Source: Candidatus Methylomirabilota bacterium
Lineage (GTDB): Bacteria > Methylomirabilota > Methylomirabilia > Methylomirabilales > CSP1-5
DNA: 35,399 nt
Assembly (NCBI GenBank): GCA_027293415.1
Contig: JAPUFX010000003.1
Span: 1-35,399 of the forward strand
Reading direction: 5' to 3'
Shown: positions 11,527 to 27,978 of the stretch, one piece after another
Numbering within the stretch: the first letter of the stretch is position 1
How the letters are laid out: every line of letters begins with the position of its first letter
Program-made: the position numbers and the translations under genes
The notes under the pieces: model-generated
Database searches by the model: none
What the model was told of the DNA's origin: nothing
Seen by the model: the letters and a program-made list of their open reading frames with translations, nothing else

Positions 11527-12507
11527 TTACTCGTCAAGTCGCACGTCGATGTACGCCTTCTTTTTCAGCTCCTCAAAATACGCATTCATCCGTTTCACCA
11601 GCTTCTGGTTGAAGAGGAGCTGACGAATTTGTTCCCGGACCTGGCCACTCATCGCATCACCCCCCGTGCGCTCCTCGACCTTGATGATATTGAACCCCGC
11701 GTCAGTTGTGATGATGTCGCTGATGCCCCCCGGCTCTAGAGAAAAAGCGGCGGACTCCAGGGCCGGGTGCAGGTCCCCCTTTTGAATCACGCCCAAGTCA
11801 CCCCCGTCCTTGGCTGCTGCGCTGTCAGAATGCTCAGCCGCGATCATGGCAAAATCGGCCCCATCTTGAAGGTGCCCGAGCACCTTTGCCGCACGGGCCC
11901 GAGCCTGCGTGAGATCCTCGGATGAGGGATCTTCCGGGAGACGCATCAGAATATGCCGGATTCGGACGGAGTCAGGCTTCCGGAATTGGTCGGCGTGATC
12001 ATGATAATACTGCGTAATCTCTTCGTCGGACACGATGACGCTCGTCCGCACGTTGCGCACAAGGAGCGCGTCCACAACCAGCTGCTCCCCCACCCTCGTC
12101 TTAAACTCTTCGAGGGTCAGGTTCTGCTGCTTGAGGGCCTCGGCGAACTCGGCATCGCTTATGATGCCGTTCTGCTTTTTGATCTGTTCGATGGCTGCCG
12201 TCACTTGTTCCTGATCCACGACGATGTTTTCCTTCGCCGCCTCCTGCAGCTGCAATTGGCGAAGGATCAAGGCATCAAGAATCTGTCGCTCGGTAATCTG
12301 CAGTTGCCCCGCGGGGTTCTGTTTCCGCAACTCGTCCCGCATGCGCTGGATAAGAGGCTTTCCCTCCTGCTGGAGCTGGCTGAGGGTAATTACCTCGTCG
12401 TTGACTATGGCAACTACCTTATCGATGAGGACACCCTCTCCGGCGACCACCGCCGCTCCCCAGACCAGCAGCGTAAGGCCCAGGATCAGTCGGTGCTGGT
12501 GCATCAT
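11527..12507 (-). CDS. surA: SurA-like periplasmic peptidyl-prolyl isomerase/chaperone
   Basis: 326 residues. A signal peptide (about 1-23, ending VVAGEG) is followed by the SurA N-terminal chaperone domain (VLIDKVVAIVNDEVITLSQL, then ILDALILRQLQLQEA). A single parvulin rotamase domain lies at about residues 184-280: RIRHILMRLP, FAMIAAEHSDS, GGDLGVIQKGDLHPALESAA and SDIITTDAGFNIIKVEER. It probably assists outer-membrane protein folding in the periplasm. E. coli SurA has two parvulin domains; one is common elsewhere. The ATG overlaps the mfd stop (ATGA), so it is the last gene of the long minus-strand operon starting at otsA. Confidence 0.9.
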   Translation of the reverse strand: MMHQHRLILGLTLLVWGAAVVAGEGVLIDKVVAIVNDEVITLSQLQQEGKPLIQRMRDELRKQNPAGQLQITERQILDALILRQLQLQEAAKENIVVDQEQVTAAIEQIKKQNGIISDAEFAEALKQQNLTLEEFKTRVGEQLVVDALLVRNVRTSVIVSDEEITQYYHDHADQFRKPDSVRIRHILMRLPEDPSSEDLTQARARAAKVLGHLQDGADFAMIAAEHSDSAAAKDGGDLGVIQKGDLHPALESAAFSLEPGGISDIITTDAGFNIIKVEERTGGDAMSGQVREQIRQLLFNQKLVKRMNAYFEELKKKAYIDVRLDE

Positions 12508-15500
12508 GACCCTCCCGAACCGCCGAGCGGCTGACCGCAGGGCTCGTGCATTTCTTGGAGCAGGGCTTTGATTCTTGCGATCCGCTCGAGGGTTGAGGTG
12601 CTGTCACAGCTCAGCTCCAAGGTATCCTCCGGCAGATACCGGAGTGCTCCTCCCATCGCCTCAAGAAGGGTCAAGATCCGCTCCGGCGGGACGGTCGGGG
12701 CTGGCCCGAACGCAATCCGGACAATCCCGCGACGGGCGTCGATCTCTCTGATCCGAAGCGACCGGGCCGTCGCCTTCAGATCGAGGACCGTCAAGAGATG
12801 CTCCACTGGCGGGGGAAACGGGCCAAACCGATCTCGGAGTTCGCCGGCTAGCTCCTCGCGCTCTGCCGAGGAGGCGGCGGCCGAGAGCCGTCTGTACAAC
12901 GTGAGGCGGACGGTGGCATCCGAGACGTACTCCTCAGGAATGAATGCCTCGAGCGGGAGACGAAGCACCGGATCGACCACGATTTCGCGGTCCTCCCCCT
13001 TGAGTTCTGCGACCGCCTCTTGGATGAGCTGACAGTACAGATCAAATCCCACTGCGTTGATGTGCCCGTGCTGCTCTACCCCCAAGAGATTTCCCGCCCC
13101 CCGGATCTCCAAATCTCGGGATGCGATCTTGAACCCCGAGCCCAGTTCAGTCAGCTCGGCAAGCACTTGAAGACGCTTCCGGGCACCTTCGGTGAGAGCA
13201 TCCTCGCGCGGGATGAGGAGATAGGCGTGAGCCCGAAACCGATCTCGACCAACCCGACCACGAAGCTGATACAGCTGGGCTAGCCCAAACCGGTCTGCGC
13301 GATTGATAATGATGGTATTGGCCGTCGGGATATCGAGGCCCGACTCGATAATGGCCGTACAGCAGAGGAGTTGGTATCGCCTGGCGTAAAAGTCGCACAT
13401 GACGCGTTCCAGCTCGTTATCCGACATCTGCCCGTGGGCCACGGCGATCTTGACGTGGGGGACCAAGCGATGGAGGAACCGTGCCATGGCCTGGATGCTC
13501 TCGACTCGGTTGTGGACAAAAAAGACCTGGCCCCCTCGGCCGATTTCCTCTTCGATCGCCTGCTGAATCACCGCGGAATCGAAACGGGTCACGTAGGTGC
13601 GAATGCTCAACCGATCCTCAGGAGGGGTCTCGATGGTGGAAACATCCCGGACCCCCAACATCGCCATATGCAGGGTCCGCGGGATGGGGGTGGCCGTCAA
13701 CGTCAGGACATCCACCTCGGTCCGGAGCCTCTTGAGCCGCTCCTTCGCCGCCACGCCAAACCGTTGCTCCTCGTCCACCACGAGGAGTCCCAGATCCCGA
13801 AATCGGACGTCATTCTGCAAGAGCCGATGAGTGCCGATGACAATATCGACGGTCCCGTCCCGCAGCCCGCGGAGGACCTTTTGCTGCTCCCCGCGGGTCC
13901 GGAATCGGGACAGCACCTCCACCACAATGGGAAAGGGGGCGAAGCGGTCCGAGAACGACTGGAAGTGCTGGAGGGCCAATACGGTTGTGGGGACGAGGAC
14001 GGCGACCTGCTTTCCGTCCATGACCGCCTTGAACGCCGCCCGCATGGCTACCTCAGTCTTGCCGTACCCAACATCCCCGCAGACCAGCCGGTCCATGGGT
14101 TGAGGCCGACTCATATCCGCCTTGACCTGCTGGATGGCCGTGATTTGATCGCCTGTCTCCTCAAAGGGAAAGGCCGCCTCAAACTCGCGCTGCCAGGGGG
14201 TATCCGAAGCGAAGGCGTGCCCCTCGGCCACCTGTCGGGCGGCATAGAGCTTCAAGAGCTCCTGCGCCATTTCCCGGATGGAGGCCCGCACCCGCTCCTT
14301 TGCCCGCGCCCACGACGTTGATCCCAACCGATCCAGGAGGGGGCCACTCGTCGTGGCATCGGCACCCACGTAGCGCTGGACGAGGTGGAACTTGTCCACC
14401 GGGACGTAGAGCTTATCGCCCGCTGCATACTCCAGCAGCAGGTAATCTCCCTCCGCCTCGCCCACCGTGAGCTTCTGTAGTCCGTGGAACCGCCCGATGC
14501 CATGGTCCACGTGAACCACAACATCACCAGATTTCAGATCCTCGAACGCAACAAAGGGGCGAGCCTCACGGATTTTTGGGCGTCGGACGGAGACAGCCCT
14601 GCGGGGGCCGAAGATTTCCGCCTCCGTGAGATAGGTCTGTTTCAGCGGCGCAAAATGAAAGCCGGCGGTGAGTCCCCCCTCCAGGATGTGGATGCTTCCG
14701 GGGAGGGCAGGCCCGTCGTTCACACTGGCACCCAGGTCGTGCTCGCGCAGCACCTCGCCCAGGCGCTGCGCCTGCGCCGCCCCCCTGGCCACAAGGGTAA
14801 TGGCGTGCCCCTCTCGACGCCACAATCCGAGGTCACGCACCAAGGGGGTGAAGCGCCCCTGGTACGTAGCGATCGGTCGGGTCTCAAAAACGAAAGGTGC
14901 GGCTTCCTGTCCTGGTGCCGGTGCAAACGGCAAAAGGTCGATCCTGGATCGGTACGCCAGCCCCTGTCGGATCTCCTTCCACTGAAGGTGTGTCGCCCCG
15001 AGCGGGGGAAGTCCTTCACCCTGATGCCGCTCGTACTGCTCCTCCAGGAGTTCCTCCGCCGTCTCGCTTTTGGCCGTCACCTGGTCCGGGTCGTCCCAGA
15101 CGAGAATCGTTTCCCGACTGAGGTATTCCCACAGGGGGACCGTCCGTCGATAGAAGTAGGGAAGATAGCGCTCGAGGCCGGGCCCGAACTTTCCCACCTC
15201 GACCGCGCCTTGAAGCAGAGGAGATCCCTTTCCCTTTGAGCGTTGCCGCGCTAACTCCCGGGATTCCGGGCGCAGGAGAATCTCCGAGAGCGGAAGGATA
15301 ACCACTCCCCCCTGGCCTGGGGACGTAAGCGAACGTTGCGTCCCCAGATCAAAGGTCCGGATCGAATCGATCTCATCTCCGAAAAACTCGATACGAACCG
15401 GATGGGGCAGGTGGGGAAGGCCAATGTCCAAAATCCCCCCGCGGCGGCTGTATTCCCCTGCTTGCTCCACCTGGGGGACCGCCCGATAGCCACCGAGGTC

Positions 15501-15968
15501 GAGAATTTCTGCGACCTGCTCGGGAGGCACGATCCGCTGGGGGTAGAGGTGCATGGTGGCCGCATCCAGCTCCTCGGGCGGGAGGAGTCGACGAAAGAGG
15601 GCGTGGGCTGGCAGCACCAGGGCTGACAGCTCCTCGTCCCGAAGTTCACGGAGACGCTTCATCCGCTCCGCGCGCACCTCAAGCGGCGGCGAGATCGGCT
15701 GAAAGGGGGGACCTTCCGGCTCCGGAAAGAGTTCCACGCGGTCTCGGTCAAGGAAGAAGCGGAGATCTGCCGTCAGTTCCTCTGCCTCTCTGAGGGTCGC
15801 CGTCACCACCACCAGTGGCCGTTTGAGCGCCCTGGCAATTTCCCCCAGCACCAGCGCCCGCGCACCCCCCCAGAGGCCGAACAGCCGGAGCCCTCCGCCG
15901 TCCGAAAGGTCCGGCAGCCGTTCGTGAAGGTTGAGGGCCTGAAGGTCTGCAAATCGTCCGGCGATCAT
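12504..15968 (-). CDS. mfd: Transcription-repair coupling factor Mfd
   Basis: 1154 residues, matching the family length of about 1150. Order of domains: UvrB-like N-terminal region (about 1-340, including [15 protein letters not shown] and [14 protein letters not shown]); RNA-polymerase-interacting domain near residues 485-545 ([18 protein letters not shown]); superfamily-2 translocase with Walker [13 protein letters not shown] near 629, DEEQRFGV near 730, [10 protein letters not shown] and the QLRGRVGR motif; C-terminal TRCF domain. It displaces stalled RNA polymerase and recruits UvrA to lesions. The ATG at 15968 overlaps the upstream gene's stop (ATGA) and has GGAGG at a good distance. The open frame's further 42 codons fall inside that upstream gene and were discarded. 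Confidence 0.98.
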
Positions 15969-16456
15969 CCGTTTCCTCCCCGGATGCGTCGGAGGAGTTG
16001 ACTGCTCGATGCCCCCTCGACGTACGACAGGGTACAGACCCGCCCCCCGCGACTCTCTACGATCTGCCGCCCGACGACTTGATCCGCCGGCCAATCACCC
16101 CCTTTGACCAGCACGTCTGGCTCGAGCGCCCGGATGACTTTCTCGGGATCCAGCTCCTCAAAAACGAGGACGTAATCGACCGCGGCCAAGGCGGTGACCA
16201 GTTCGGCCCGTTCCTCGTCAGACATCACCGGCCGGCCCGGCCCCTTCAGGGCACGGACTGAGGCGTCACTGTTGATGGCAACGATGAGGACATCTCCCAA
16301 GGTCTTGGCTTGATCCAGGTACCGAACGTGACCTCGATGGAGCAGGTCGAAACACCCATTGGTGAAGACCACCTGCTTTCCGTGTCGGCGGAGGCCCTGC
16401 GTAATGCTTGCCAGCTCCTCCAGCGTCTTGAGTTTTTCCGCATAGCCTGGCGGCAT
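15965..16456 (-). CDS. rfaE2: D-glycero-beta-D-manno-heptose 1-phosphate adenylyltransferase (HldE C-terminal type)
   Basis: 163 residues, a stand-alone version of the adenylyltransferase half of HldE. The nucleotidyltransferase signature VVFTNGCFDLLHRGHVRYL includes the HxGH motif (His40-Arg-Gly-His43), and SYVEGASSSQLLRRI near the end contains the family's S-S-S-x-L/I-I-like C-terminal element. It makes ADP-heptose for the LPS inner core, which supports an outer membrane with heptose-containing LPS. Neither the sugar kinase, the phosphatase nor the epimerase of the pathway is in the window. It overlaps mfd by four bases and follows the deoxyhypusine-synthase-like gene after 13 bases. The start at 16456 has only a weak ribosome-binding site. 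Confidence 0.93.
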   Translation of the reverse strand: MPPGYAEKLKTLEELASITQGLRRHGKQVVFTNGCFDLLHRGHVRYLDQAKTLGDVLIVAINSDASVRALKGPGRPVMSDEERAELVTALAAVDYVLVFEELDPEKVIRALEPDVLVKGGDWPADQVVGRQIVESRGGRVCTLSYVEGASSSQLLRRIRGGNG

Positions 16457-16469
16457 CTCGTGCCCCGAC

Positions 16470-17429
16470 TTACTCCCCCTCTTCCCACTGCTCGATCACG
16501 GCCGCTGCCAAGAGCGGGAACAGGATTTCGTGATGTCCGATTAGGGCGTATCCTTGGCCGCCTCCCGCCACGGGGCGGCGGACGACGTTCTGGGTCGGGC
16601 GGTAATGTTGCAGAAAGTCCATGTTCACGGTGGTGAAGTCAGTCACGGCATGCCCCACGTTCCGGGCCACCGCTATCGCTTTCATAAAGACCTCGGGAAG
16701 GAGGACCGCGGAGCCCACATTGAGATAGACCCCACCACCCCCGAGCTCTGCCACCACCGCCGTCAATAGCCGAAAGTCGAGATGGCTCGCCTCGCCAATG
16801 GCTGCTCCGTCGCACGAGGGGTGCATGTGAATGACATCGGTCCCGACCGCCACGTGGACAGTCACCGGCAGGTGGAGACGAACCGCAGCGGCACAGAGGC
16901 TCAAGTGCAGATACGGGGGGCTCAGGACTCGAAGTTTTTCCCCCACGGCCTGTCCGAACCCCCAACCTTTGGCGATTCCCTCCCGGACCGCATCGTTGAG
17001 GATTCTTCCGGTTTCCTCGGCCATCCCGAACTCTCCGGTTCCCAGGACGGCTTCCACTTCCTCGGAGGTAAAGCCGGCGTACGCAAGTTCGAAGTCGTGG
17101 ATCGGGCCGGCCCCGTTCATGGCGATGGCGTTCACGATCCCGCGTTCCATCAGATCGATCACCACCGGCGAGAGCCCGACCTTGATGACGTGGGCCCCCA
17201 GCCCCAAGATCACTGGCTTTCCGGCCCGGCGGGCGGTAACCATGGCGGCCACCACGGCGCGGAAATCCCGGGCCCCCAAGATATCGGGGAGGGTAGCGAG
17301 GAAGTCCCGAAGGACCCCTCCTTTTTGCCAGACCCGTGCCAGGGCCGTGACGGAAACCTTGCTCGGCCGGTCGCGGAGGGGGGTGGTCTTTATCTTGTCA
17401 AGGTCAATAGGTTCCCACGGCTTTTCCAT
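16470..17429 (-). CDS. Deoxyhypusine-synthase-like family protein
   Basis: About 319 residues. Rossmann-type features recall the deoxyhypusine synthase superfamily: LGLGAHVIKVGLSPVVIDLM, IVNAIAMNGAGPIHDFELAY and GTGEFGMAEETGRILNDA. Further on are HVAVGTDVIHMHPSCDGAA and GGGGVYLNVGSAVLLPEVF. Classical enzymes transfer aminobutyl from spermidine to eIF5A, with a Lys in an S-W-G-K motif near the C-terminus. I see no such motif here, and bacteria lack eIF5A, so the substrate is unknown. Bacterial relatives have been linked to polyamine or homospermidine chemistry, but that is not shown here. ATG 17429 has GGAG six bases upstream and avoids overlap with otsB; an upstream in-frame start exists at 17513. 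It lies within the ots-mfd-surA operon. Confidence 0.65.
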   Translation of the reverse strand: MEKPWEPIDLDKIKTTPLRDRPSKVSVTALARVWQKGGVLRDFLATLPDILGARDFRAVVAAMVTARRAGKPVILGLGAHVIKVGLSPVVIDLMERGIVNAIAMNGAGPIHDFELAYAGFTSEEVEAVLGTGEFGMAEETGRILNDAVREGIAKGWGFGQAVGEKLRVLSPPYLHLSLCAAAVRLHLPVTVHVAVGTDVIHMHPSCDGAAIGEASHLDFRLLTAVVAELGGGGVYLNVGSAVLLPEVFMKAIAVARNVGHAVTDFTTVNMDFLQHYRPTQNVVRRPVAGGGQGYALIGHHEILFPLLAAAVIEQWEEGE

Positions 17430-17479
17430 CTTGTTCTCCACCAGTCGATCTTCCCTCGATTCCCCTGTTCTATTGCTCC

Positions 17480-18292
17480 TCAGGCGACCATCGCGGTTCT
17501 GAGGTGCCTGCATCGTTTTAGAAACTCCTTGACCTCTTCCTGGTCCCGAAGGTAATACGAGGCGGCACTGCTTGGCTTTCGGCCTCCCACGAAGACCGCC
17601 AAGTCGTTCGCTCGCAGGGCGGCAAAGGCGGCCTCGTCGGTCTCATCGTCCCCCAGATAGCAGAGCAAGATCTTGCGAGGCGACCGGCTTCGTTCGATCT
17701 CTCTCCGGATGAGCTTGACGGCATTCCCCTTATCCCACTGTACCGCGGGGCGCACTTCCAAGACCATCTTTCCCCGGGTGACACGAATCTCTCCCCGCTT
17801 CAGATACGGGCTTACCGTCTGCATGAAGATGTCTTGGACGGTGGAATGTCGGGCCCGGGGGACTCGCCGATAGTGGAAGCTGAGGCTTAAGGTCTTATCC
17901 TCGACGAGGACTCCGAAAATCCCCGCAAGTCGCTTCCGGAGCTCTCTGGCGATTCGGACGAGCACCGGGCGCGTCGCCGCCGCCCCCGGGTGAAGAAAAC
18001 GAAGGTTTGGCCCTTGCAGCTCCAGGCCATGGTTCCCCGCGTAGTAGAGTCCCCGGATCCCGATGCGCCTCCGCAGATCCCGCAGTCCACGACCGCTGAT
18101 GATCCCAATGGCCACCTGGCTGTCCTGACTGAGGGCCTGCAACATCTTCCGGTGAGATGGGGAGAGGCGGGGAATCCCCGGGCGGCTCGCGATGGGGCTG
18201 AGGGTCCCATCAAAATCGAACAAGAGGGCAATCTGTTCCGCCTGCCGGATCCGCGCGGCACAGCGGTTCCAGGTGCGGAAGAGATGGATCAT
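17480..18292 (-). CDS. otsB: Trehalose-6-phosphate phosphatase
   Basis: 270 residues, HAD superfamily with the trehalose-phosphatase cap. Motif I is LLFDFDGTLSP with nucleophile Asp26 and acid/base Asp28; motif II lies in IGIISGRGLRDLRR; GLYYAGNHGLELQGP is characteristic of the family. Then come LSLSFHYRRVP, LEVRPAVQWDKGNAVKLI and the metal-binding motif YLGDDETDEAAF. It removes phosphate from trehalose-6-phosphate to give trehalose, a compatible solute and stress protectant, in the cytoplasm. The ATG at 18292 overlaps the otsA stop by four bases. The open frame's extra 30 N-terminal codons lie inside otsA and were rejected. The C-terminus ends 50 bases before the next gene. Confidence 0.93.
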   Translation of the reverse strand: MIHLFRTWNRCAARIRQAEQIALLFDFDGTLSPIASRPGIPRLSPSHRKMLQALSQDSQVAIGIISGRGLRDLRRRIGIRGLYYAGNHGLELQGPNLRFLHPGAAATRPVLVRIARELRKRLAGIFGVLVEDKTLSLSFHYRRVPRARHSTVQDIFMQTVSPYLKRGEIRVTRGKMVLEVRPAVQWDKGNAVKLIRREIERSRSPRKILLCYLGDDETDEAAFAALRANDLAVFVGGRKPSSAASYYLRDQEEVKEFLKRCRHLRTAMVA

Positions 18293-19770
18293 AACCGCCC
18301 GCGACGGATCCGCCTGACTTCCTTGAGCATATCCAGGGCCCACCGGTAGATATCGTGATCCTGAATCTGCTCCTGGAGCCACCGGCAGCGCCTGCCCCGC
18401 TCTTCCTGAGGCATCTCAAGCGCCTGCCGGATGGCCTCGGCAGACCCCTCGATGTCATATGGGTTAATCGACGGCGCCTCAGCGAGTTCGCGGGCCGCGC
18501 CGGTAAACCGACTGAGGATCAGAACGCCTGGCTTCTCCCCCTGTTGCGCAGCGATAAATTCCTTGCTCACCAAATTCATGCCATCATGCAGGGCCGTCAC
18601 GAGGCAGACATCCGCCATCGCAAGATAGGCGAGAACCCTCGGGTAACTAACCTGTTGGTCCAAGAGGATCACCGGCTGCCACGTCTCCGTCCCGTACTTC
18701 CAGTTGATCTCTTCGACTCGCTGGGCGATGTCCCCCCGGAGTTCCTTGTACGCGGGGATGTGGATCCGGCTGGGGGCCCCAATCCCCAGGTAAACGAACC
18801 GCCCCACGTAGTGTGGATACCGCTCGAGGAACCGATCGATGGCATGGAGCCGCTCCACGATGCCTTTCGTGTAGTCAATTCGGTCCACTCCAACCGCCAG
18901 GAACTCCGGTCGCCCTCCCAGCAGGCGATCAATCCGGCGCGTCTCTTCTTCGACTTCGGGCGATTCGAGGTCCTGAACGATACGATGATAATCGATGCTA
19001 ATGGGGAAGGGTTTGACAACGGTCATACGCCCCCGGTACTGAACCGCCGATTGCTCGGCAATAATCTTGGCCTCTAGCTCATTGGCCACCGTGGCCAGGA
19101 AGTTATCGCAGTGGTAGCGGATCTGAAATCCGAGCAGGTCAGCCCCCAGCATCCCCTCCAGCAGCTCTCGTCTCCAGGGACAGATCCGAAAGACCTCGGG
19201 GGTCGGCCAGGGCGTGTGCCAGAAATGCGCCACGCTCAGATCCGGTCGCGCCTGCTTCAGGAACCGCGGTAAGAGCGCGAGATGAAAATCTTGGCTCCAG
19301 ATCAAGGCGCGCCCTTGTCCGGCTTCCTTCAGGGCGGCATCGCTCATGACCTGATTCACCGCCTGATAATGCTGCCAGTCTGAGGCGCGAAAGATCGGCC
19401 GGACGAAGGCGGTATGGCAGAGGGGCCAGAGGACCTCGTTGCCGAAGCCATGGTAGTACCCCTCTTCCTGCTCCTTGCTCAGAAAAACCCGCCGGAGGGT
19501 GTACTGAGGATCCTCTGGCGGGACCCGCACCCGGCCCTCGGCATCCACGACAATCCGGTCCGCCGGAGTCTGCCCGGAGGCCACCCAGCTCCCTTTGGCT
19601 ACGCGGAGCACCGGATCAAGCGCCACTACGAGCCCACCGGCAGGCCGTCGCCAGATGACACGATCCCCGTCGTAGATATGCATATACGGCTGACGGTTGG
19701 AGACGACCACCACTCGGGTGGCCCTCATCTTGGTCTTTACAAAATCCTGTAATGCTGCACGATGAATCAT
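18289..19770 (-). CDS. otsA: Trehalose-6-phosphate synthase (GT20 glycosyltransferase)
   Basis: 493 residues. It joins glucose from a nucleotide sugar (usually UDP-glucose) to glucose-6-phosphate. Family signatures are VVVVSNRQPYMH and RRPAGGLVVALDP at the N-terminus, IWSQDFHLALLPRFL, the acceptor-site region HFWHTPWPTPEVFRICPWR, VGVDRIDYTKGIVERL, ALHDGMNLVSKEFIAAQ, and LSRFTGAARELAEA followed by INPYDIE. The HTPWP and QDFHL variants differ from the common HIPFP and HDYQL, so a related GT20 product such as glucosylglycerol phosphate is a minor alternative; the otsB partner favours trehalose. The ATG at 19770 has a GGGGGGAG site that can be hidden in a hairpin. An ATG at 19728 is the other possible start. 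Confidence 0.92.
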   Translation of the reverse strand: MIHRAALQDFVKTKMRATRVVVVSNRQPYMHIYDGDRVIWRRPAGGLVVALDPVLRVAKGSWVASGQTPADRIVVDAEGRVRVPPEDPQYTLRRVFLSKEQEEGYYHGFGNEVLWPLCHTAFVRPIFRASDWQHYQAVNQVMSDAALKEAGQGRALIWSQDFHLALLPRFLKQARPDLSVAHFWHTPWPTPEVFRICPWRRELLEGMLGADLLGFQIRYHCDNFLATVANELEAKIIAEQSAVQYRGRMTVVKPFPISIDYHRIVQDLESPEVEEETRRIDRLLGGRPEFLAVGVDRIDYTKGIVERLHAIDRFLERYPHYVGRFVYLGIGAPSRIHIPAYKELRGDIAQRVEEINWKYGTETWQPVILLDQQVSYPRVLAYLAMADVCLVTALHDGMNLVSKEFIAAQQGEKPGVLILSRFTGAARELAEAPSINPYDIEGSAEAIRQALEMPQEERGRRCRWLQEQIQDHDIYRWALDMLKEVRRIRRGRL

Positions 19771-19955: not shown

Positions 19956-19984
19956 AAAAAAACCCGAGAGGGTCAACCCTCGGG
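19956..19984 (-). terminator. Strong Rho-independent terminator
   Basis: On the minus strand CCCGAGGG pairs with CCTCTCGGG-type bases (8 bp, one G-T pair) around a six-base loop, followed by seven T. It lies four bases past the stop of the AsmA-like remnant and ends the lapA transcript before otsA. Confidence 0.85.
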
Positions 19985-20688: not shown

Positions 20689-21600
20689 TCAGGACGTGCG
20701 AAGCTTGGGGTCGAGCACGTCTCGGAGGGAGTCACCAAAGAGATTGAAGCCGAAGACAGCGGCACTGATGGCGAGGCCGGGAAAGATGCCCATCCAGGGT
20801 GCCCGTTCCGCAAACTCCACGGCGGCTCCCTTGAGCATCAGGCCCCAGGCCGGGGTAGGCTCGGTCACCCCGAGGCCCAGGAAGCTCAGAGATGCCTCCA
20901 AAAGGATGGCCTGACCCAGGAAGGCGGTCAGCATGATCAAATAGGGAGCCACGACGTTTGGCAGCATGTGGCGGAACATGATCCGCATGTGGCTGAACCC
21001 CATGGCTCGGGCCGCGTCCACATACGGGGTCTCTCGGATGGCCAACGCGCTCGAGCGCACCACCCGCGCACACCGCGGCACCATGGGGACCGCGATGGCG
21101 ATGATCACGTTTTCCACCCCGGTGCCCAGCGCCGCCACCACCGCGAGGGCCAAGACGATGAGGGGAAAAGAAAGCAGAACATCCATGACTCGCTGGATCA
21201 CGAGGTCGCTCTTGCCGCCGAAGTAGGCGCTCATCACCCCCATGATCGCCCCCACCGTCGCCCCGAAAATGGAGGCCGAGAACCCCACCAGCAATGCTGT
21301 CCGGGAACCATAAATAATCCGGCTCAAAATATCCCGACCATAGATGTCCGTCCCCAACCAGAATTTCGCTCCCGGCGCCTGCATCATGAGGTGATAGCGG
21401 GTTGTTAGCGGATCATAGGGGGCGAGGTAATCGGCCCCGATGGCCACCAGGACCATAACGACAACGACGGCCGCGCCGCAGGTCCCGAGCGGCTTTTGTC
21501 GGGTGAATCGGACGACTGCCTGAAGCCACATGGGCAACCCGGTCGGAACCCGCCGCCCCACCGCTGCCGCTGTCTCAACCCGGGTCTGGTTCGCTTCCAC
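20689..21600 (-). CDS. dppC: Dipeptide/oligopeptide ABC transporter permease, DppC type
   Basis: 303 residues. A cytoplasmic N-terminus precedes TM1 (about 40-60). The OppC N-terminal motif HLMMQAPGAKFWLGTDIYGR, then DILSRIIYGSRTALLVG, marks the DppC/OppC branch. The EAA loop that contacts an ATPase is YVDAARAMGFSHMRIMFRHM followed by LPN. Further helices follow, with ASLSFLGLGVTEPTPAWG and FNLFGDSLRDVLDPKLR near the end, all characteristic of the family. It forms the transmembrane pore with DppB. The start is GTG 21600 with a GGAAGGA site; it is 12 bases after the dppB stop. No ATP-binding subunit follows, the next genes being the lapA-like gene and otsA. Confidence 0.93.
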   Translation of the reverse strand: MEANQTRVETAAAVGRRVPTGLPMWLQAVVRFTRQKPLGTCGAAVVVVMVLVAIGADYLAPYDPLTTRYHLMMQAPGAKFWLGTDIYGRDILSRIIYGSRTALLVGFSASIFGATVGAIMGVMSAYFGGKSDLVIQRVMDVLLSFPLIVLALAVVAALGTGVENVIIAIAVPMVPRCARVVRSSALAIRETPYVDAARAMGFSHMRIMFRHMLPNVVAPYLIMLTAFLGQAILLEASLSFLGLGVTEPTPAWGLMLKGAAVEFAERAPWMGIFPGLAISAAVFGFNLFGDSLRDVLDPKLRTS

Positions 21601-21612
21601 TTTCCTTCCCCG

Positions 21613-22566
21613 CTACCGATACCGAATCCGAGGATCCAGCCAGCCGTACAGGATGTCTATGACAAAGTTCACCAGGACAAACGTCACGGCGACCAGCAGG
21701 ACCAACGTCTGGGTCATGGTGTAATCCCGCTGGGCGATGGACTGCACTAACAGCTTCCCGAGTCCGTTCAGATTGAAGACCTGCTCCGTGACCACGAGCC
21801 CCCCGATTAAGAAGGCAAACTCGAGCCCGATTACCGTGATCACCGGCAGCAGGGCGTTTTTCATCGCGTGGCGGGTGATGACCACCTTCTCCCATAACCC
21901 CTTGGCACGGGCCGTTCGGACGTAGTCCTCCCGTAACACTTCCAACATCGAGGATCGCATCATGCGCGTGGAGACGGCGGAATACCGGTACCCGACGGCC
22001 ACGGCAGGCCAGACGATCTGCGAGAGATTCGCCCACGGATCGACCCAGATCGGCGTGTAAACCATCGGCGGGACCCACTGAAAGTAGATCAGCAGGAAGA
22101 GGATGATGAGAATCCCCAGCCAGAAAGAGGGCATGGATAATCCGGCAATGCTGAAGACCCGGACGGCGTAATCCACCCAGGTGTCCTGCTTCAGGGCCGC
22201 AAGCGTCCCCAACGGAATCGCAATGAGGATCGCCACCACGGTCGCCAGAATAGCGACCTCGAGGCTGAGCTCGAGCCGGATGCCGATCTCGTGGGAGATG
22301 GGGCGGCCCGTCCACATGGACGTTCCGAAATCCAGCCGCACAATCCCCCATATCCAGTTCACAAACTGCTGCCAGAGGGGCTTATCGAGGCCCAGCCGCG
22401 CCCGCTCCGTGGCCAGGACCTCTTCCGTGACGAAACCCCCTTCGCTGGTGAGTCTCAGCTCGACGACGTCACCTGGAATCACCCGCATGAGGAGGAAGAT
22501 GAAGACCGCGACCCCGAGAAGGGTCGGGATCATCAAGAGGAACCGCTTGATGATATATCGTTGCAT
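21613..22566 (-). CDS. dppB: Dipeptide/oligopeptide ABC transporter permease, DppB type
   Basis: 317 residues with about six transmembrane helices. Family features are the N-terminal IIKRFLLMIPTLLGVAVFIF, followed by LMRVIPGDVV. Further ones are GIVRLDFGTSMWTGRPISHE, the EAA-type loop REDYVRTARAKGLWEKVVIT with RHAMKNALLPVIT, and the C-terminal LVNFVIDILYGWLDPRIRY. It pairs with DppC to carry peptides (or nickel or similar ligands) across the inner membrane. It starts at ATG 22566 and is separated from the binding-protein gene by a strong intercistronic hairpin, which probably keeps permease levels below those of the binding protein. Confidence 0.93.
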   Translation of the reverse strand: MQRYIIKRFLLMIPTLLGVAVFIFLLMRVIPGDVVELRLTSEGGFVTEEVLATERARLGLDKPLWQQFVNWIWGIVRLDFGTSMWTGRPISHEIGIRLELSLEVAILATVVAILIAIPLGTLAALKQDTWVDYAVRVFSIAGLSMPSFWLGILIILFLLIYFQWVPPMVYTPIWVDPWANLSQIVWPAVAVGYRYSAVSTRMMRSSMLEVLREDYVRTARAKGLWEKVVITRHAMKNALLPVITVIGLEFAFLIGGLVVTEQVFNLNGLGKLLVQSIAQRDYTMTQTLVLLVAVTFVLVNFVIDILYGWLDPRIRYR

Positions 22567-22571
22567 TGCCT

Positions 22572-22626
22572 CTCAAAAAGAAGGTGGCCCGCCGCCTTCC
22601 CCTGCGCGGCGGGCCACCGTTTTGAG
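22572..22626 (-). terminator. Intercistronic hairpin between the binding-protein gene and dppB
   Basis: GGTGGCCCGCCGC (22583-22595) pairs perfectly with GCGGCGGGCCACC (22606-22618) around a ten-base loop. CTCAAAA 22572-22578 can also pair with TTTTGAG 22620-22626. On the minus strand it is followed by TTCTTTTTGAG. It would terminate part of the transcription and protect the upstream mRNA from decay. Confidence 0.75.
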
Positions 22627-22661
22627 GAGCGCCGAGCGCTCAATCCCCCTCACGAGGGCTA

Positions 22662-24284
22662 CTACTTATCGGCCAGCCAGACGTCCCGCAAGTCCTGATT
22701 GAGGTAGTGGCTGGGGAGCTGGTTCCAGCCTCGTACCTTGGCCCAGTGGGGATTGATCTTGAACCACCAGAGGGTGGGAAACGTGTAGACCTTCTCGCTG
22801 AGCACTCGCTTCTCAAACTGGCGGATCAGCTTCATCCGCTCTTTCTTGCTCCTGGCGCGGCTCTGCTTTTCGTACAGCTTGTCCAAGACCGGATCCTCGT
22901 AGCGCGAGTAGTTGGCACCGCTTGTCCCCATGGAGAGGAACTTGGAGAGCTGAAGATCCGGCTCGTCCATAAAGCCGCACTCCCAGTCCATGATGGTCTG
23001 GAAGTTTCCCTTTTTCCGATCACCGAAGAACGGACCCTTTTCCAAGACCTTGAGCGAGACGTTGAGCCCGATCTTTCGCCACTGGTCGACGAGCCAGATT
23101 CCCATATGCTCATACGGCATCGGCAGGTCGCGATTCTTGAAGGTGAAAGAAAACCCCTCGGGAACTCCGGCCTCCTTGAGGAGGCGGCGGGCCTCCTTCC
23201 GGGCAGCCTTGATGTCCTTGCCGTAGCCGACGAGCCCCGTCAGCTCTGCCTCGGTCGCGGCAAATTCGGAGCCGGGGCGCATGATGCCTCCCACCGGCTT
23301 GATGATGGCGATCCTGGACAGGTACCGTGAAGCCTCCCAGCGGTCCAGGGCTAACGTCAGGGCCTTCCGGACCCGCACATCATTGAAAGGCTTCTTTTCG
23401 TTGTTAATGGCGACCGAGAGATAGCAGAGCCATGGGCCCTCCTGGACCCGGATCTTGTCTCCTAAGGCCCGGACCAGGTCGTCACGGCTCGAGGGAGGGA
23501 ACCCCCGGAACTCGATGAGGGCGCGCCCGCCCCGGACCGCGGCCACCCTGGCCGAGCTCGACTTAATGAAGATGGCCCTGTATCCGTCGAGGTAGGGCCG
23601 ACCCTTCACGAAGTAGTCCTCGTTCCTCTTGCCGATCCAGTGAGACCCTGGGACAAACTCCGCAAACTTGAAGGGGCCGGTCCCATTGATGTTCTTCTCA
23701 TACCAATGCGGATCCTTCGCGAGGATGTCCGCCTTGTAGATGAAGTTCCAAGGGGAGGCGAGATTCGCCAAGAAGGAGGGGGCTGCCCACTTCAGGCGAA
23801 ACACGACCGTCCGGGCGTCCGGCGCCTTCACCGACTCTACCACGAGATAGGCCCCCTTGCGGGCGCTCGATACGCCCGGGGGTGGGGAGATGATCTTGTC
23901 GTACGTGGCCTTGACGTCGCGGGCCGTGAGGAGGGATCCGTCGTGAAACTTGATCCCTTTCCGGATCTTGAAGGTGTATGTCTTCCCATCTTTGGAAATC
24001 TTCCAGCTTTCTGCCACGTCCCCGACGATCTTTGGGTAGTTCATCTGGTCGAACTTCAACAGCAGGCTGTAGTGAGGGGCCACCGGGTGAATCAGCGCAA
24101 AGGTGGTCTCCCGATGCCCATCAAAGGAGGGGGGGTCTTTCGGCACGGCAAAGTCCAGGCTCCCCCCATACCGGGGCTGCTCTGCTGCCATGGCCGCAGG
24201 AGCCATGACCAAGGCCAGCACAAACATGGCTGCGGATACGGCAGCGATACACCGGGTTCGGCGAGTAAAGGTTCTCCTCTTCAT
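22662..24284 (-). CDS. dppA: Extracellular solute-binding protein, family 5 (peptide type)
   Basis: 540 residues. A signal peptide of about 33 residues ends APAAMAAEQP. The mature protein follows the SBP_bac_5 pattern: RYGGSLDFAVPKDPPSFDGH, VGDVAESWKISKDGKTYTFK, IRKGIKFHDGSLLTARDVKA, INGTGPFKFAEFVPGSHW, FNDVRVRKALTLALDRWEAS and LLKEAGVPEGFSF. Lobe I, lobe II and the return to lobe I are all present, so it is full length. It captures a peptide or other ligand in the periplasm and delivers it to DppB-DppC. No N-terminal lipobox Cys is present. The ATG at 24284 has a perfect AAGGAGGTGA site. A sigma-70-type promoter lies about 115 bases upstream, and the gene leads the three-gene dpp unit. Confidence 0.93.
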   Translation of the reverse strand: MKRRTFTRRTRCIAAVSAAMFVLALVMAPAAMAAEQPRYGGSLDFAVPKDPPSFDGHRETTFALIHPVAPHYSLLLKFDQMNYPKIVGDVAESWKISKDGKTYTFKIRKGIKFHDGSLLTARDVKATYDKIISPPPGVSSARKGAYLVVESVKAPDARTVVFRLKWAAPSFLANLASPWNFIYKADILAKDPHWYEKNINGTGPFKFAEFVPGSHWIGKRNEDYFVKGRPYLDGYRAIFIKSSSARVAAVRGGRALIEFRGFPPSSRDDLVRALGDKIRVQEGPWLCYLSVAINNEKKPFNDVRVRKALTLALDRWEASRYLSRIAIIKPVGGIMRPGSEFAATEAELTGLVGYGKDIKAARKEARRLLKEAGVPEGFSFTFKNRDLPMPYEHMGIWLVDQWRKIGLNVSLKVLEKGPFFGDRKKGNFQTIMDWECGFMDEPDLQLSKFLSMGTSGANYSRYEDPVLDKLYEKQSRARSKKERMKLIRQFEKRVLSEKVYTFPTLWWFKINPHWAKVRGWNQLPSHYLNQDLRDVWLADK

Positions 24285-25976: not shown

Positions 25977-26470
25977 CAGTCTGCTACCTCCACTGTGTAA
26001 TCTTCCAGACCCCGCCGGATCCCCTCCCGCACCTCCTCCGGGTGGGCAATGTCCAGCGTATGGATGTAGAGGGTCCGTCCATCCGGAGCGACATCCATCG
26101 TGAGGGTCCCGGGCGTGAGCGTAATGCTGTTGGCCAACAGCGTGGTCCCGAGAGGGCTCCGGTGACGGGTCGCAAAGGCAATAATCCCCGGACGGATCGG
26201 CATCTTGGGATGGAGCGCCATATAGACCACCTGCAGATTCGCCTTGAGCAGCTCGTACAGGAAGTGCGCGAGGTAGCGGAGGAAGGCCGGGATCTTCCGG
26301 AACAGACGGAGTGGAGACGGACTCCACGGAAAGAACGGGCGAAACAGCACGAGGGTGAGTGTCCCCATCAGCAATCCCATGAGGAAGTTGGCCAAGGTTA
26401 TCGCCCCGCTCAGAAAGCACCACACCACGGCGAGCACGAGGGTGAGCATCCAAAGTTTGCGCTCTTTCAT
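25976..26470 (-). CDS. mrpE: Mrp-type Na+/H+ antiporter subunit E
   Basis: 164 residues. Two N-terminal transmembrane helices (about 8-25 and 28-45) are followed by a cytosolic domain with the family motifs LLKANLQVVYMALHP, LANSITLTPGTLTMDVAPDG and LYIHTLDIAHPEEV. MrpE is needed for assembly and activity of the antiporter complex. It overlaps mrpD by four bases (ATGA) and mrpF by one base. Confidence 0.94.
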   Translation of the reverse strand: MKERKLWMLTLVLAVVWCFLSGAITLANFLMGLLMGTLTLVLFRPFFPWSPSPLRLFRKIPAFLRYLAHFLYELLKANLQVVYMALHPKMPIRPGIIAFATRHRSPLGTTLLANSITLTPGTLTMDVAPDGRTLYIHTLDIAHPEEVREGIRRGLEDYTVEVAD

Positions 26471-27978
26471 TGCGGCTCCACAGTGGAGGCTGTCACAGGC
26501 GGCACCTCCCGAAAAACGGCCGTGACGTAGGCCTCCGGCTGCCTCAGTTGAGCTTCCACGGCTCGCAGAAAATCGACCAGGGGGTTGAGAAATATTGTGC
26601 CGACCAGGATGACCCCGGCCAAGACAAGTCCCGATCCTTTCATGAGCCGAGGGGCCGGGTGGAGAGCGCGTCCGCTGCCTTCACGCCAAAAGATCTGTTG
26701 CCAGGCAGCAAAGAGATACCAGAGGGTCACGATGGCCAAGCCTGCCGCCAACGCCGCGAGGAATCCGTGCCCCGACTCGAGTGCGGCCTGGATGAGAAGA
26801 AACTTGGCGAAAAAGCCGAGGAGGGGGGGGACTCCGGCAATGCCCATAGTCCCGATCAGAAAAGCACCTGCCGTCCAGGGCATCTGCCGGGCAAGTCCCC
26901 CCATGCCTCCCATCTCCCTCGTCCCCGTCGCCTCAATGACAACCCCTGCCGTGAGGAAGAGCATCGCCTTGGACAGGGCGTGATTCACGATAAAGAGGAG
27001 TGTACTCAGGAGGGCGAGGGGGGTTCCGATCCCGAGGCCCAAGATGATGTAACCCATCTGGCTCACGCTCGAATACGCCAGGAGGCGCTTGACGTCCGAC
27101 TGGGCGAGGGCTCCACAAGCCCCCACCACCATAGTGACCGCCGCAAGGGCCAAAATCCACTCCTGCGCGTCGGGCCGGAGGGGGACAAAGATCACACTGG
27201 AAACTCGGAGAATACTGTATGCGCCCACCTTGATCAGGACGCCGGAAAGCATGGCACTGATCGGGGTCGGGGCACTCGAGTGGGCGTCAGGCAGCCAGAA
27301 GTAAAACGGAAACATTGATGCCTTTACCCCGAAGACCGCGATGAAGAGGAGGAAGATGGTGGGGAGGGGGCCCGGCTCCTGAAGCCCCCCGATCTTGAGA
27401 CTGAGATCGGCCATGTTCAAGGTTCCCATGACGCCGTACAGCCCGCCCACCGCCAATAAAAACACCGCAGAGGCAATGAGGTTGATGGTGGCGTATTTGA
27501 GCGAGGCCTCGAGCTGATAGTCCTCACCACCAAAGGCCACCAGGGCGTAGGAGGAGATCAAGAGAATTTCGAAGAAGACAAACAGGTTGAAGATGTCCCC
27601 GGTGAGGAAGGCACCATAGATGCCCATCATGAGCAGATGGAAGAGAGGATGGTACGCGAGCCGCTGCCCCTCTTCGTCAACGTATCCCACGGAGTAGCAG
27701 AGGGCGACCAGAGCCACACCGCTCGACAGGAGGACCATCCCGCTGCTTAAGAGATCCGCCACCAGGATGATGCCGAAGGGGGGAGACCAGCTGCCCATGA
27801 CGTGGACCACGGTTCCCCAGCTCCAGACGGTCCTGAGGAGGAGGAGGGCGCTGGCGAATGTGGCCCCCCCTCCGACCAGGCTCGCCAGGATCTTTCCGCG
27901 AAGGGACCGTCCGAGAAAGATCGTAACGATGGCGGTCGCCAAGGGAATCAAAACGGGGAGGACCACCAGCATTTTCAT
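26467..27978 (-). CDS. mrpD: Mrp-type Na+/H+ antiporter subunit D
   Basis: 503 residues, about 14 transmembrane helices, related to complex I NuoM/NuoN. Key residues for proton translocation are visible: Glu137 in FVFFEILLISSYAL and Lys219 in FGVKASMFPFYFWLPDAHSS. DVKRLLAYSSVSQMGYIILG is the conserved helix with the broken segment. It is one of the two proton-pumping-like subunits of the Mrp complex. The ATG at 27978 overlaps the mrpC stop (ATGA). Confidence 0.96.
   Translation of the reverse strand: MKMLVVLPVLIPLATAIVTIFLGRSLRGKILASLVGGGATFASALLLLRTVWSWGTVVHVMGSWSPPFGIILVADLLSSGMVLLSSGVALVALCYSVGYVDEEGQRLAYHPLFHLLMMGIYGAFLTGDIFNLFVFFEILLISSYALVAFGGEDYQLEASLKYATINLIASAVFLLAVGGLYGVMGTLNMADLSLKIGGLQEPGPLPTIFLLFIAVFGVKASMFPFYFWLPDAHSSAPTPISAMLSGVLIKVGAYSILRVSSVIFVPLRPDAQEWILALAAVTMVVGACGALAQSDVKRLLAYSSVSQMGYIILGLGIGTPLALLSTLLFIVNHALSKAMLFLTAGVVIEATGTREMGGMGGLARQMPWTAGAFLIGTMGIAGVPPLLGFFAKFLLIQAALESGHGFLAALAAGLAIVTLWYLFAAWQQIFWREGSGRALHPAPRLMKGSGLVLAGVILVGTIFLNPLVDFLRAVEAQLRQPEAYVTAVFREVPPVTASTVEPQ

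Follow-up and report, generated by a model that had tools for sequence, protein, structure and literature searches.

A GSU2086-family protein with the deoxyhypusine synthase fold as a candidate replacement for the ADP-heptose 6-epimerase HldD

In this study, a gene was analysed that lies in a 35,399-nt stretch of DNA (hereafter the window; positions 1 to 35,399 of contig JAPUFX010000003.1, assembly GCA_027293415.1) from a Candidatus Methylomirabilota (NC10) bacterium. A first-pass annotation of the window had described its product as a protein resembling deoxyhypusine synthase (DHS), lying between the trehalose genes otsA-otsB and heptose, mfd and surA genes, a placement that profile matches to the neighbours, all on the same strand, bear out. 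The locus raises the question of what a protein of this kind does beside a gene for the heptose of lipopolysaccharide (LPS). Our results indicate that the protein, a member of the GSU2086 family, is probably an isofunctional, non-homologous replacement of HldD, with a predicted activity of inverting C-6 of the heptose by a borrowed hydride, the carrier probably being the nickel-pincer nucleotide (NPN).

Profile searches placed the protein in NCBIfam family NF052581 ("GSU2086 family protein"), with 427 bits against a cut-off of 250 and a match over positions 1–301 of the 301-position model. By this full-length score above a curated cut-off it is assigned to the family, whose name states no function and for which a function is proposed here. 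The Pfam DHS model, PF01916, was matched weakly (13.5 bits, gathering cut-off 27), and no true DHS was found in the window's own genome. An AlphaFold model with a predicted local distance difference test (pLDDT) score of 92.6 displayed the overall DHS fold, with all 50 of the PDB matches listed by Foldseek being DHS (E about 1e-9, template modelling (TM) score about 0.6); a single-sequence phmmer search against PDB gave no match. The DHS likeness noted earlier therefore holds for the fold and fails for the family. The likeness to DHS and homospermidine synthase is confined to the fold, whereas the score, the gene context and the catalytic Lys differ: W-[GAS]-K was present in the C-terminal 90 residues of 0 of 133 family open reading frames (ORFs), as the first-pass annotation had seen for S-W-G-K in this protein, and the DHS-type Lys of the DHS-derived homospermidine synthases is thus also lacking. 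In the GSU2086 family, R-P-x-x-N-V-V-x-R-P occupies the C-terminal region. Because the protein belongs to neither enzyme, and its family keeps invariant K83, K250, H80, H111 and H201 of its own, the "missing" Lys is less puzzling. There was no match to TIGR02197, the model of HldD, which has the short-chain dehydrogenase/reductase (SDR) fold, nor to the LarA models in Pfam and NCBIfam.

The longest frame runs from 16470 to 17513 on the minus strand (347 aa). The start at 17429, giving 319 aa (ATGGAAAAGCCG), is supported over that at 17513, because GGAG lies upstream and because the 99% identical gene of a Candidatus Methylomirabilis metagenome-assembled genome (L001) has an in-frame TAG within the extra 28 N-terminal codons. 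The gene is real beyond chance, with 34 invariant columns in an alignment of 55 relatives from many phyla; invariant residues of the family include H80, K83, H111, D112, E114, T121, S122, E123, D198, H201, D218, N237, E246, K250, D271, Y276, R277, and R285. Conservation of charged residues to this degree implies that the enzyme is active and not a dead DHS.

Relatives were found in NC10, Desulfobacterota, Nitrospirota, Acidobacteriota, Poribacteria, and Firmicutes. At 95 of the 117 distinct loci, a gmhA or hldE/hldC gene of the same orientation lay no more than 1.5 kb away, gmhA being the commonest neighbour (81 loci); the order in Firmicutes is GSU2086-hldE-heptosyltransferase-like. Open frames of about 520 aa in some genomes were considered as GmhA-GSU2086 fusions and rejected, as gmhA lies in another, overlapping frame. 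The Desulfobacterota genome G360 and genome G395 have the order gmhA-GSU2086-hldE-gmhB, a cluster covering 4 of the 5 steps of the ADP-L,D-heptose pathway, the sole missing step being that of the 6-epimerase HldD; no HldD match at E ≤ 1e-50 was found in either genome. In G015, a genome of the window's genus, the run otsA-otsB-hldC-mfd-surA is kept with only the GSU2086 gene missing, and HldD is present in the genome.

HldD was scored by TIGR02197 with a cut-off of 274.6 bits. Among 60 genomes of the window's own phylum, 6 carried GSU2086 and none of these had HldD over the cut-off (119–142 bits); hldC was near GSU2086 in all 6, within about 0.5 kb in five and about 2 kb away in G012. An SDR of the window's own genome (contig C146, 119 bits) was tried as HldD and rejected, since it scored best against GalE and under every cut-off shown. 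Within the window's order, to which these 6 genomes belong, GSU2086 occurred in 0 of 13 genomes with HldD, and the genomes of its genus divide into 2 with GSU2086, 3 with HldD, and 1, incomplete, with neither. In G001 and other genomes of the class (family f6), which have neither gene, the rfaE-domain-II genes fall nearly all just under the TIGR02199 cut-off. A set of 50 GSU2086 genomes spanning many phyla, picked by sequence patterns and not at random, contained none with HldD over its cut-off. The largest sample, 296 Desulfobacterota genomes, gave 12 with both genes, 166 with GSU2086 only, 58 with HldD only, and 60 with neither (odds ratio 0.075, p = 6e-17, a p value that ignores phylogeny); among the HldC-positive genomes p was 2e-18. 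HldC homologues are retained in 169 (95%) and GmhB homologues in 166 (93%) of the 178 GSU2086 genomes. An HldC tree built from 92 genomes shows 12 changes of the GSU2086 state; in independent pairs, HldD moves in the opposite direction in 3–4 of 4 supported ones and never in the same direction. GSU2086 is thus distributed as a non-orthologous replacement of HldD would be, in a manner complementary to HldD and with the other pathway genes kept. The two proteins would have in common the proposed reaction and the partner enzymes, with mutually exclusive phyletic patterns, whereas their folds and sequences differ.

DHS catalysis is redox-neutral, with a hydride borrowed by NAD, and the DHS fold therefore suits an epimerase. 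The closest profile matches outside the family were Sll1336/Alr4995 and 3c2q, ahead of DHS (1.6e-4 vs 0.13); the corresponding model, TIGR00300, is now named "ornithine cyclodeaminase, nickel-pincer nucleotide-dependent" by NCBIfam. The window genome has a TIGR00300 ornithine cyclodeaminase at L071:4436-5656 (−) of contig C191, which matches NF052581 at 8.6e-7 over 70 residues; it was first taken as a candidate second, weak GSU2086 copy and was rejected as such. Its presence suggests that this NC10 genome makes NPN. GSU2086 and TIGR00300 (the C-terminal part of ArgZ/AgrE) have in common G-x-x-[VI]-[VI]-x-x-G and an H-D-x-E-x-x-x-x-G-(x)-T-S block, and are likely to use the same cofactor; GSU2086 differs in having no N-terminal LOR/SDH-type part, and another substrate is expected. 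NPN is made by LarB, LarE, and LarC, and is held by a Lys, as tether, and a His, as nickel ligand (PMC11796402). With the TIGR00300 link, this made a survey of LarC a suitable test. LarC was found in 169 of the 178 GSU2086 Desulfobacterota genomes (95%), a rate equal to that of HldC and similar to that of GmhB, and in 37 of the 58 HldD-only genomes (64%; p = 5e-8 for GSU2086-only vs HldD-only genomes). E. coli gave no LarC match. Neither larB nor larC adjoined GSU2086 at any of the 117 loci. LarA homologues, the lactate racemase family, include a gluconate epimerase; GSU2086 differs from them in having no sequence match and in that its substrate would be a sugar nucleotide and not a 2-hydroxy acid. 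In the literature collection searched, no paper was found on NPN-dependent ornithine cyclodeaminase or on the Geobacter LPS core.

LarB is a PurE-like protein. In transposon sequencing (Tn-seq) of Geobacter sulfurreducens growing on electrodes, the 39 genes listed in Table 1 of PMC5585712 include gmhA (−3.7), GSU2086 (−3.2), and hldE (−3.1), together with the PurE-like GSU0140 (−2.2), the adjacent hypothetical GSU0141 (−2.3), the adenosine-nucleotide alpha-hydrolase GSU0536 (−2.6), and the nickel transporter NikMN (−2.0); the passage of that paper on these genes does not connect them. larB and larC were adjacent in 4 of the 5 related genomes examined here. From product names and general knowledge, we take GSU0140 to be of the LarB type and GSU0536 of the LarE type (LarE superfamily), and GSU0141, beside GSU0140, is presumably a larC candidate. 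With these Lar genes as putative, the Tn-seq list is an independent data set that fits the NPN assignment.

We lean towards the GSU2086 family being an NPN-dependent ADP-heptose 6-epimerase of the DHS fold, a fold other than that of LarA, acting on a sugar nucleotide and unrelated to HldD. The reaction, exact substrate, cofactor, and cofactor-binding residues that we infer are as follows. C-6 of D-glycero-D-manno-heptose would be inverted to supply the inner core of LPS, in the simplest case with ADP-D,D-heptose as substrate and ADP-L,D-heptose as product. The C6-OH would be oxidised to a 6-ketone with the hydride parked on a bound cofactor, and the hydride would be returned to the opposite face, so that the net reaction would be redox-neutral. 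The carrier would probably be NPN, the product of LarB, LarE, and LarC; either K83 or K250, both invariant, may serve as its Lys tether, and one of the invariant His residues H80, H111, and H201 may lie close to the nickel.

Several other explanations have to be weighed. It is unlikely that GSU2086 replaces HldD with NAD(P) bound as in DHS: the best structural matches of the model are NAD-bound DHS enzymes, HldD itself uses NADP, and the heptose evidence applies equally, but the TIGR00300 matches stand ahead of DHS, LarC is enriched in GSU2086 genomes, and the putative LarB/LarE-like and nickel-uptake genes have the same phenotype in the Geobacter list. There is also a small chance that the protein acts at another heptose step, by 6-epimerising heptose-7-phosphate or the bisphosphate or by turning ADP-D,D-heptose into a different sugar, in which case the exclusion would reflect the heptose type used. 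The tight link to gmhA, an early step, favours the heptose-phosphate level, and the 12 Desulfobacterota genomes with both genes are compatible with action at another step; HldD replacement is nevertheless the simplest account of the exclusion and of the gmhA-GSU2086-hldE-gmhB cluster. Replacement of GmhB, the heptose-bisphosphate phosphatase, could explain the linkage to hldE/hldC and gmhA, but is largely refuted and very improbable, since GmhB-like genes are commoner with GSU2086 (166 of 178; odds ratio 4.1) and gmhB belongs to the GSU2086 cluster of G360 and G395. A role in polyamine metabolism as a relative of DHS or homospermidine synthase, suggested by the first-pass annotation and recommended by the fold and the weak PF01916 match, is hardly credible with a score below the Pfam cut-off, a separate NCBIfam family, no Lys motif, no polyamine genes among the profiled neighbours, and a Tn-seq phenotype that, in the 39-gene list, tracks the heptose genes. 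Context, phyletic pattern, and Tn-seq point to ADP-heptose for LPS, the gene is co-directional with a heptose gene, and the envelope role offered in the same annotation is likely.

Against assignment as an NPN-dependent replacement of HldD stand the following points. The family has no known activity, and the epimerase activity is a prediction. The 12 of 296 Desulfobacterota genomes with both genes and about 51 HldC-positive ones with neither mean that 6-epimerisation is not always needed or that a third route exists. The exclusion test controlled by the tree is underpowered, its 3–4 supported pairs being consistent but too few for significance, and the LarC tree test against GSU2086 also had too few supported pairs, about half showing no difference. 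Homology to TIGR00300 is significant over only about 70 residues. LarC was not matched in 9 of the 178 GSU2086 genomes, about as many as incomplete assemblies would account for, and where present it may instead serve LarA or ornithine cyclodeaminase. The Lar labels of GSU0140, GSU0141, and GSU0536 rest on product names, position, and knowledge and not on sequence. In Acidobacteria and some others, GSU2086 is not beside heptose genes. The family, fold, heptose linkage, HldD exclusion, and LarC enrichment are supported by the data.

At the Acidobacteria loci L039-L044, L054, L055, and L063, GSU2086 is flanked on one side by uvrA and on the other by genes for a CPBP protease and/or the methylthioribose-1-phosphate isomerase MtnA. 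The HldC-positive Desulfobacterota genomes with neither gene may use D,D-heptose directly or possess a third epimerase.

Table 1. Features of the gene run around the GSU2086-family gene in the window
Feature	Coordinates	Strand	Evidence and remarks
surA-like peptidylprolyl isomerase	11527..12507	−	matches PF00639, PF09312, PF13624
mfd, transcription-repair coupling factor	12504..15968	−	TIGR00580, 1069 bits; start overlaps hldC stop (ATGA)
hldC (rfaE domain II)	15965..16456	−	TIGR02199, 194.5 bits (cut-off 181.5); begins 13 nt past GSU2086 stop
GSU2086-family gene (319 aa), proposed to replace HldD as ADP-heptose 6-epimerase	16470..17429	−	NF052581, 427 bits (cut-off 250); DHS fold; start-codon evidence
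otsB, trehalose-phosphatase	17480..18292	−	TIGR00685, 161 bits; start inferred, ATG at 18292
otsA-like trehalose-6-phosphate synthase (GT20)	18289..19770	−	PF00982, 428 bits
terminator-like hairpin upstream of otsA	19963..19984	−	8-bp stem then T7; in the whole scan, hits no more than in shuffles

As listed in Table 1, otsA-otsB-GSU2086-hldC-mfd-surA lie on one strand, neighbouring genes either overlapping (ATGA type) or standing no more than 50 nt apart, and this run of six probably begins after the hairpin. The gmhA-like gene of the window genome is weak (108 bits, cut-off 209). Upstream of otsA, the region 20689-24284 (−) carries genes of a peptide/nickel-type ABC transporter (permeases and a solute-binding protein), the best permease model being the "nickel" Opp2B with a score below its cut-off, and an MrpD-like Na+/H+ antiporter subunit is encoded at 26467-27978 (−).

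If the assignment is true, the missing last step to ADP-L,D-heptose would be filled in most of the Desulfobacterota sampled, as well as in GSU2086-bearing Nitrospirota, Acidobacteriota, NC10, and some Firmicutes, and a family without a function would gain one. The rare NPN cofactor would gain a new job, making LPS assembly nickel-dependent in Geobacter and many other bacteria, and the common phenotype of nickel uptake, putative LarB/LarE-like genes, and LPS genes in Geobacter electrode growth would be explained. About 15% of the genomes analysed in PMC11796402 have larB/C/E without larA, which leaves room for NPN enzymes other than LarA. GSU2086 would be the NPN user in part of these larB/C/E-positive, larA-negative genomes, and offers one directly testable candidate.
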